Assembly (NCBI GenBank): GCA_029260255.1
Contig: JAJDDR010000111.1
Location: forward strand, 1-43,290
DNA from: Phycisphaerae bacterium
Lineage (GTDB): Bacteria > Planctomycetota > Phycisphaerae > UBA1845
Length of the DNA: 43,290 bases
Reading direction: 5' to 3'
Shown: piece by piece, positions 10,412 to 42,928 of the stretch
How the letters are laid out: every line of letters starts with the position of its first letter
Numbering within the stretch: the first letter of the stretch is position 1
The notes under the pieces: generated by a model
Seen by the model: the letters and a program-made list of their open reading frames with translations, nothing else
Database searches by the model: none
Told to the model about the DNA's origin: nothing
Made by a program: the position numbers and the translations under genes

Positions 10412-10525
10412 GGGTGTGGCCAGGGATTTTGGCATGCCAATGGCGGGTTCCACCCGCCTTCTTGCTCGGTTGCGGCGGGTAAAACCCGCCCTACCCGGAC
10501 GGTGCCAAGAAGAACAGCCACACCC
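10412..10525. mobile_element. Diverged copy of the MITE-like palindromic element
   Basis: GGGTGTGGCC...CCACACCC ends; internal GGCGGGTTCCACCCGCC and GGCGGGTAAAACCCGCC hairpins; flanked by CCGCTGCGG at 10403-10411 and 10525-10533 (one boundary C is ambiguous). Confidence 0.75.
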
Positions 10526-28297: not shown

Positions 28298-28426
28298 GGG
28301 TGTGACCATTGATTGTGGCATGCCAGGGGTAGGGCGGGTTCCACCCGCCTTCTTCCTCGGTTGCGGCGGGTGAAACCCCCTACGGCATGTCCCTGACCAA
28401 CGATGCCACAGAGAATGGTCACACCC
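28298..28426. mobile_element. MITE-like palindromic element, copy 2
   Basis: GGGTGTGACCATT...GTGGCAT / ATGCCAC...AATGGTCACACCC; nested GGCGGGTTCCACCCGCC hairpin; flanked by TACTGACAC at 28289-28297 and 28427-28435. Confidence 0.88.
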
Positions 28427-41673: not shown

Positions 41674-42564
41674 TCAGACTTTCGTGAATTGCATCACCCG
41701 GTCGTGCGGGTCGCTCGGAGCGCGAAACGTCCCGGAATGCACCAGCGCCCCGCCGCCCGCGAACACCGCCGCGACATCGTCACGTTGGCCGGCTCCGATT
41801 TCGACGAGGACGGCGCCGTCGGCTTTCAGCAGGCTCGTGGCGCCGGACGCGATGACGCGGAACAACGCGAGCCCGTCGCCGCCGGGGGTTAGGGCGATGG
41901 TCGGTTCGTGGTCGCGGACGTTGGGTGGCAGAGTAGCCATGTCCGCCTCGGACACGTACGGCGGGTTCGACACGATCAGGTCGAACCCGCCCTGAGGCAC
42001 GACGTCGGGAGACAGCGAGAGGTCGGCCGCCTCGACGAACCGGATGCGGTCCGCGACCTCGTGCCGGCCGGCGTTTCTGCGGGCGACGTCAAGGGCGCCG
42101 GCCGAGATGTCCGTGGCCACGCCCGTTGCTCGAGTGCAGTTCGCCAGGATGGTGACGATGATGCATCCGCTGCCCGTCCCCAGGTCGAGGATGCTGGGTG
42201 TTCCTTGGCTGCCCCGGCAACGCCCGATGGCGCGATCGACCAGCGTCTCGGTCTCGGGCCGGGGGATGAGGACGTCGGCGGTGACCTCGAACTCCAGTGA
42301 GAAAAACTCGCGAAAGCCGACCAGATAGGCGATGGGCACGTGCTGAGCCGCGCGTCGCACTGTATCCCGGAACTGCGCGAGGACGGTCTCATCGGGCACA
42401 TTGTCGAATCGGGTGTACAGTTGGATGCGCGGGCATCGCAGTGCGTGGGCGAGAAGGATCTCGGCGGACAGCCGTGGCTCGTCGAGACCGTGGTTGTCGA
42501 AATGGCCGGTGGTCCAAGTCAGCAGGCGACCTATGGTCCACGGCGTCTGTGGTTCGTCGCCCAT
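41674..42564 (-). CDS. prmC: Peptide chain release factor N5-glutamine methyltransferase PrmC/HemK
   Basis: LIPRPETETLVDRAI, ILDLGTGSGCIIVTI, DLIVSNPPYVSEADM. ATG at 42564 (MGDEPQ); the track ORF's upstream extension runs through the mobile element. Confidence 0.94.
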   Translation of the reverse strand: MGDEPQTPWTIGRLLTWTTGHFDNHGLDEPRLSAEILLAHALRCPRIQLYTRFDNVPDETVLAQFRDTVRRAAQHVPIAYLVGFREFFSLEFEVTADVLIPRPETETLVDRAIGRCRGSQGTPSILDLGTGSGCIIVTILANCTRATGVATDISAGALDVARRNAGRHEVADRIRFVEAADLSLSPDVVPQGGFDLIVSNPPYVSEADMATLPPNVRDHEPTIALTPGGDGLALFRVIASGATSLLKADGAVLVEIGAGQRDDVAAVFAGGGALVHSGTFRAPSDPHDRVMQFTKV

Positions 42565-42599
42565 CCCGCGTTTATACCGCCGGCCGAGGTCTGGGCAAA

Positions 42600-42730
42600 G
42601 GGTGTGACCATTGATTGTGGCATGCCAGGGGTAGGGCGGGTTCCACCCGCCTTCTTCCTCGGTTGCGGCGGGTAGAACCCGCCCTACGGCATGTCCCTGA
42701 CCAACGATGCCACAGAGAATGGTCACACCC
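42600..42730. mobile_element. MITE-like palindromic element, copy 3
   Basis: Nearly identical to the 28298 copy; GGGTGTGACCATT...AATGGTCACACCC; flanked by CTGGGCAAA at 42591-42599 and 42731-42739. Confidence 0.88.
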
Positions 42731-42854
42731 CTGGGCAAAGTCGGGTCGCTTTTGGAATTGAATTCGGGTGGGTTCGCGCGTACACTCCCGAAGCTGTCGA
42801 CGGCGTTTGTTTCCGTCGACGCGGTGATCGGGCCTGCGGGCGTGATTGCATGAT

Positions 42855-42928
42855 GGTGGGCGTAGCTCAGTTGGTGGAGCACCAGGTTGTGGTCCTGGGG
42901 GTCGCGGGTTCAAGTCCCGTCGCTCACC
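42855..42928 (+). tRNA. tRNA-His (anticodon GTG)
   Basis: Acceptor GTGGGCG/CGCTCAC with an extra 5' G; D-arm TAGCTCAGTTGGTGGAGCA; anticodon arm CCAGG-TTGTGGT-CCTGG; T-arm GCGGG-TTCAAGT-CCCGT; no encoded CCA. Confidence 0.95.

Follow-up and report, generated by a model that had tools for sequence, protein, structure and literature searches.

Promoter-spaced copies of a putative ISKra4-type MITE carrying a REP dimer in an uncultured planctomycete genome

Introduction

Promoter-directed insertion is rare among bacterial transposons. Several transposases of the ISKra4 group and of TnGBS/ISLre2 insert upstream of sigma-A promoters and produce 8-9 bp duplications (PMC3942029). The ISKra4-group insertion sequences, classified as p-MULT 4 by Guerillot et al. 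2014 (PMC3942029), have GGG...CCC ends and 8-9 bp duplications, are inserted in front of sigma-A promoters with either end towards the promoter, and are present in Planctomycetes. TnGBS and ISLre2 (p-MULT 3) likewise keep a fixed distance, 15-17 bp, upstream of sigma-A promoters, mostly in one orientation. GTAG-type REPs and their RAYT genes are known as GTAG-tagged palindromes that form dimers and flank RAYT genes (Di Nocera et al. 2013, PMC3733652). In a few genomes such dimers were seen inside longer palindromes, the outer part of which was left unexplained (PMC3733652).

Here we describe a repeat from the draft genome of an uncultured planctomycete (5.75 Mb, 618 contigs) that resembles all of these systems. 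For prmC of this DNA, the best named match is in a Phycisphaerae genome, with other Planctomycetota next, and the host is thus probably a planctomycete. It lies between prmC and tRNA-His in the window, the whole stretch of 43,290 nucleotides that was analysed. Unlike the p-MULT 4 insertion sequences, it is a gene-less 131-bp copy, occurs in high number and encloses a REP dimer. That ISKra4 elements target promoters has already been published; the literature searched gave no case of a high-copy MITE that has inherited this targeting.

Element structure

The element at 42600-42730 is an inverted repeat over almost its whole length and is bracketed by a perfect 9-bp target duplication. Its parts are as follows.

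42591-42599, no strand: left 9-bp target duplication CTGGGCAAA, by direct reading
42600-42730, no strand: putative ISKra4-type MITE of 131 bp, from reading, fold, genome-wide copies and three other copies that are 100% identical
42600-42623, plus strand: left terminal inverted repeat GGGTGTGACCATTGATTGTGGCAT, the same as the right end at 21 of 24 positions and similar to the ends of full-length ISKra4-type insertion sequences
42631-42651, plus strand: GTAG-type REP unit 1 (GTAGGGCGGGTTCCACCCGCC), from genome-wide matches of the unit
42667-42687, minus strand: GTAG-type REP unit 2, inverted, pairing with unit 1 as the inner hairpin (REP dimer)
42707-42730, minus strand: right terminal inverted repeat GGGTGTGACCATTCTCTGTGGCAT, from comparison of copies
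42731-42739, no strand: right 9-bp target duplication CTGGGCAAA, by direct reading

An earlier note on this DNA had read it as a MITE with its own 9-mer on both sides, and CTGGGCAAA is indeed perfect at both flanks. At 131 bp and with no gene of its own, the element has the small size (under about 300 bp) and non-coding nature of a MITE, and it combines terminal inverted repeats, a target duplication and many copies. Agreement between the two ends at 21 of 24 positions holds in the main subfamily. Folded as single-stranded RNA, the element reaches -86 kcal/mol (z = -9.4). Comparison with Rfam returned the tRNA and one below-threshold miRNA match and nothing else. The MITE gave zero matches to plasmids and phages, as did its 24-bp end to viral contigs.

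Copies in the window and the genome

The combined pieces of the genome contain at least 65 complete copies, which fall into several subfamilies. A 9-bp duplication with at most one mismatch flanks 49 of the 63 testable copies, and several further copies have the same kind of repeat displaced by one base. At up to one mismatch, the 13-bp end has 113 matches in the genome and its reversed control has 2, a difference far beyond chance. The window contains two other copies.

28298-28426, no strand: second copy, 129 bp, with duplication TACTGACAC; promoter-like TCGACA-N18-TACGAT at base 28 to the right (28454)
10412-10525, no strand: third, diverged copy; near-consensus TTGACA-N17-TACAAT at base 27 to the left (minus strand, 10385)

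The second copy is 97% identical to the element at 42600-42730, with two substitutions and a 2-bp deletion, all within the inner arm. The earlier note had paired these two as almost identical, with differences only near the right inner hairpin. That similarity is confirmed; the closest kin are three other copies, on contigs C538, C369 and C200, which are 100% identical to the element and all have different duplications. Identity among four copies whose duplications differ points to recent movement of the family, in agreement with what had been suggested from the window.

Ends shared with ISKra4 elements

The consensus of the MITE end is GGGTGTGRCCATTnnnnGTGGCAt. Similar ends are carried by full-length insertion sequences of the ISKra4 family (prokaryotic Mutator-like) in related genera of the same family. 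One such element (L222/L354) is 1,550 bp long with ends GGGTGTGGCCAT..., and the presumed parent type (L223) encloses between ends of this kind an intact ISKra4 transposase of 417 aa (NF033572 at 3.7e-57, with a score of 194 bits that is just under the NCBIfam cut-off of 205). The genome of the MITE itself contains a relic (66 aa) of an ISKra4-family transposase, next to which the same end is found (C372). Since its ends are common to full-length ISKra4 elements and to this relic, the repeat is, as judged from its sequence, an ISKra4-type MITE (Mutator-like, p-MULT 4 group). The MITE also shares its GGG/CCC ends and a duplication of 8-9 bp with other ISKra4 elements of the phylum.

In the draft assembly, the search for a full-length ISKra4 element with these ends yielded only the relic and a contig-end fragment (L043, C121:5467-5606). 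In this fragment 13 bp identical to the MITE end are followed by other sequence with a possible start codon. The contig stops after 140 bp and a second copy was not found; the fragment may belong to the autonomous element that is missing. ISMich2-type and IS1/IS4 origins were abandoned after ISKra4 elements with the same ends had turned up. At L142 (C558, 418-1991) the inner hairpin of a MITE is split by an IS4-family element with its own ends, CAATGGCCCTAAG; this insert, once considered as a parent, lies inside the MITE and is not its parent.

REP core

The REP unit, at up to two mismatches, has 167 matches in the genome and 0 in the control. It is a GTAG-tagged palindrome in the 20-40 bp range, in high copy number, and occurs also outside the MITE, both as solo units (e.g. 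L269, L275, L277, L279 and L286) and as one REP dimer found without MITE ends. A RAYT gene is associated with it: on contig C489 (L280, 340-885, minus strand; REP_Tyr_transpos, 6.1e-52) the gene has the GTAG-REP of the MITE core on both sides, and this RAYT likely mobilises the REP units. Beyond what was described for REP dimers within palindromes (PMC3733652), the surrounding palindrome can here be assigned to an ISKra4-type MITE, with the REP pair travelling along.

Distance to predicted promoters

Promoters of this uncultured host were predicted from a sigma-A-like consensus, and 97 outward flanks of copies with duplications served as the test set. TTG begins at base 28 from the element end in 21 of the 97 flanks, against 1.4 expected per offset (p=7e-19; the offset was noticed in the same data, and other genomes are the check on it). 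In 26 flanks a -35-like hexamer with at least four of six matches to TTGACA begins at base 28, where the average offset has 3.1; the maximum for -10-like hexamers is at bases 50-52. The combined promoter score is at least 8.5 at bases 26-30 in 35 flanks, compared with a mean of 1.4 in equal-width windows elsewhere, and removal of similar flanks leaves 34 versus 1.4. Counted by element, 34 of 49 have such a promoter next to one or both ends, and about 15 of the 49 have no convincing one at the expected distance; all three copies in the window fit. TnGBS and ISLre2 share the fixed distance but not the freedom of orientation, as here either end may face the promoter (21 vs 13).

The check in other genera, made on nine REP-less MITEs and the 1,550-bp insertion sequence, gave the same spacing for nine of the 10 elements. 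Full-length ISKra4 elements with different ends, from other planctomycete families, peak at bases 27-28. The copies thus appear to have been inserted at an almost fixed distance of about 27 bp ahead of predicted host promoters, and a distance this constant points to a transposase that finds promoters and not random DNA. The ISKra4 group likewise inserts upstream of sigma-A promoters; the distance here is 27 bp (18 bp past the duplication), compared with a published 13-17 bp for p-MULT 4, a figure that may or may not count the duplication.

The prmC/tRNA-His locus

The genes and candidate promoter boxes around the element are as follows.

41674-42564, minus strand: prmC (release factor glutamine methyltransferase; Pfam PrmC_N and MTS)
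42571-42576, minus strand: TATAAA, putative -10 box for prmC, at 6 bp from the start codon
42593-42598, minus strand: weak candidate prmC -35 box (TTGCCC), found by eye inside the left target duplication and missed by the consensus scan
42758-42763, plus strand: TTGAAT, putative -35 box for tRNA-His, at base 28 counted from the element
42781-42786, plus strand: TACACT, putative -10 box for tRNA-His, after a 17-bp spacer; the same TACACT is present in L203
42856-42929, plus strand: tRNA-His (GTG)

The start codon of prmC is the ATG at 42564 (minus strand), the element boundary is 36 bp upstream of it, and similar TATA boxes are found at the prmC start in many relatives. On its other side, 27 bp separate the element from the putative tRNA-His promoter downstream, TTGAAT-N17-TACACT. 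A strict consensus scan of 42500-42900 returned no promoter, including none of the element's own, because its threshold was 9/12 and the tRNA-His site scores 8/12. The promoter call is based on conservation and on the genome-wide offset: a relative (G004, L203) has the same divergent prmC/tRNA-His pair without the element, with TTGCAA-N17-TACACT at the same spacing. Judged by its spacing to the predicted promoter, which is shared with dozens of copies, the position of the element at this locus is not accidental.

Both predicted core promoters lie outside the element and point away from it, and neither transcript should therefore contain it. As both also appear intact, disruption of prmC or tRNA-His by the element is unlikely. 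The location between the two genes had been recognised in the earlier note and stands; the proposed effect on transcription of both is weakened, as the predicted promoters appear intact and resemble the layout in L203. As to an empty site with a single CTGGGCAAA, no relative was close enough: the only same-genus genome searched (G001) is without prmC, and the other relatives are too diverged for an empty site at base level.

Proposed mechanism and alternatives

We consider it very probable that the repeat is a MITE moved in trans by a promoter-directed ISKra4-group transposase, with the REP dimer carried along. A DDE transposase of this prokaryotic Mutator-like group would act on the non-autonomous element, recognise its GGGTGTGRCCATTnnnnGTGGCA ends and cut with a 9-bp stagger. 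In either orientation it would place one end 27 bp away from a sigma-A -35 box (18 bp when the 9-bp duplication is left out of the count), most likely through contact with the promoter or with RNA polymerase bound there. At this locus the tRNA-His promoter would have been chosen, and the insertion would have gone into the short space between divergent promoters with both cores left intact. The inner GTAG-REP dimer, itself a RAYT-type mobile repeat, would be copied along with the MITE. We infer from the sequences the mobilisation in trans, the contact with promoter or polymerase, and a neutral effect on the two genes.

Most copies are intergenic on inspection and selection against gene disruption is universal, as would be expected of an ordinary MITE that inserts at random, its in-gene copies being lost and those in front of promoters surviving. 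Selection for intergenic positions, however, cannot yield a peak of 1-3 bases at offset 28, and the same offset is found in full-length insertion sequences and in other genera. Nor does random insertion agree with double insertions on the same 9-mer, such as that on contig C616, where one promoter is preceded by the series 9-mer, MITE, 9-mer, MITE, 9-mer; a site set by the promoter would give this pattern. The fixed spacing already contradicts random insertion, which we regard as very unlikely. The core of the element is a GTAG-REP dimer and the C489 RAYT is flanked by the same REP, which would suit a REP/BIME-type element moved by a RAYT tyrosine transposase, with the outer repeats as mere flanks. 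The copies, however, stop at the outer repeats and are flanked by 9-bp duplications, which to our knowledge are not expected from the RAYT route, and REP-less MITEs with the same kind of ends exist. For the whole 131-bp unit this origin is already contradicted, and we regard it as extremely improbable.

A use to the host would be another reason for copies to be kept at promoters, the element serving as a transcribed hairpin or an insulator that tunes prmC and tRNA-His. The very strong fold and the location between two divergent promoters agree with this, and such inverted repeats can act in RNA. Yet the element is expected in neither transcript, a promoter of its own was not found in it, the locus lacks it in the relative L203, and the four identical copies with different duplications speak for recent spread; a regulatory role is improbable, if less so than random insertion. 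Within transposition by the ISKra4-group enzyme, it is a tentative proposal, somewhat short of an even chance, that the transposase finds the promoter-bound RNA polymerase holoenzyme and not a DNA word, and that the lodged REP dimer has thereby been spread to promoters. If this were true, every MITE copy would mark a promoter used in the cell with near single-base accuracy.

Since 131 bp are enough to keep the full target rule, the rule resides in the transposase and the short ends, and it is therefore testable with tiny substrates. Targeting of this kind explains why the repeats are found in promoter regions that they leave unbroken, and it offers a route from sequence alone to promoters in uncultured planctomycetes, here that of tRNA-His.

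Further observations

Adjacent MITE pairs that share the 9-bp duplication between them, with one promoter ahead, are present at L251 (C616, 1064-1322) and L028 (C257, 1501-1760) and speak for more than one insertion into one site. At the ends of contigs C170 and C199 (L018/L019) a MITE and one flank are common and the other flanks differ; this may reflect variation between strains, a recombination event at the MITE or a fork in the assembly. At L281 (126-209) and at L150 (near 1566) there is an 84-bp relative that has the MITE ends and lacks the REP core. In the window, the prmC frame is open over 41674-42882 (minus strand). It crosses the MITE and reaches a GTG at 42882, which could lead an automatic gene caller to add about 106 residues to the protein wrongly.
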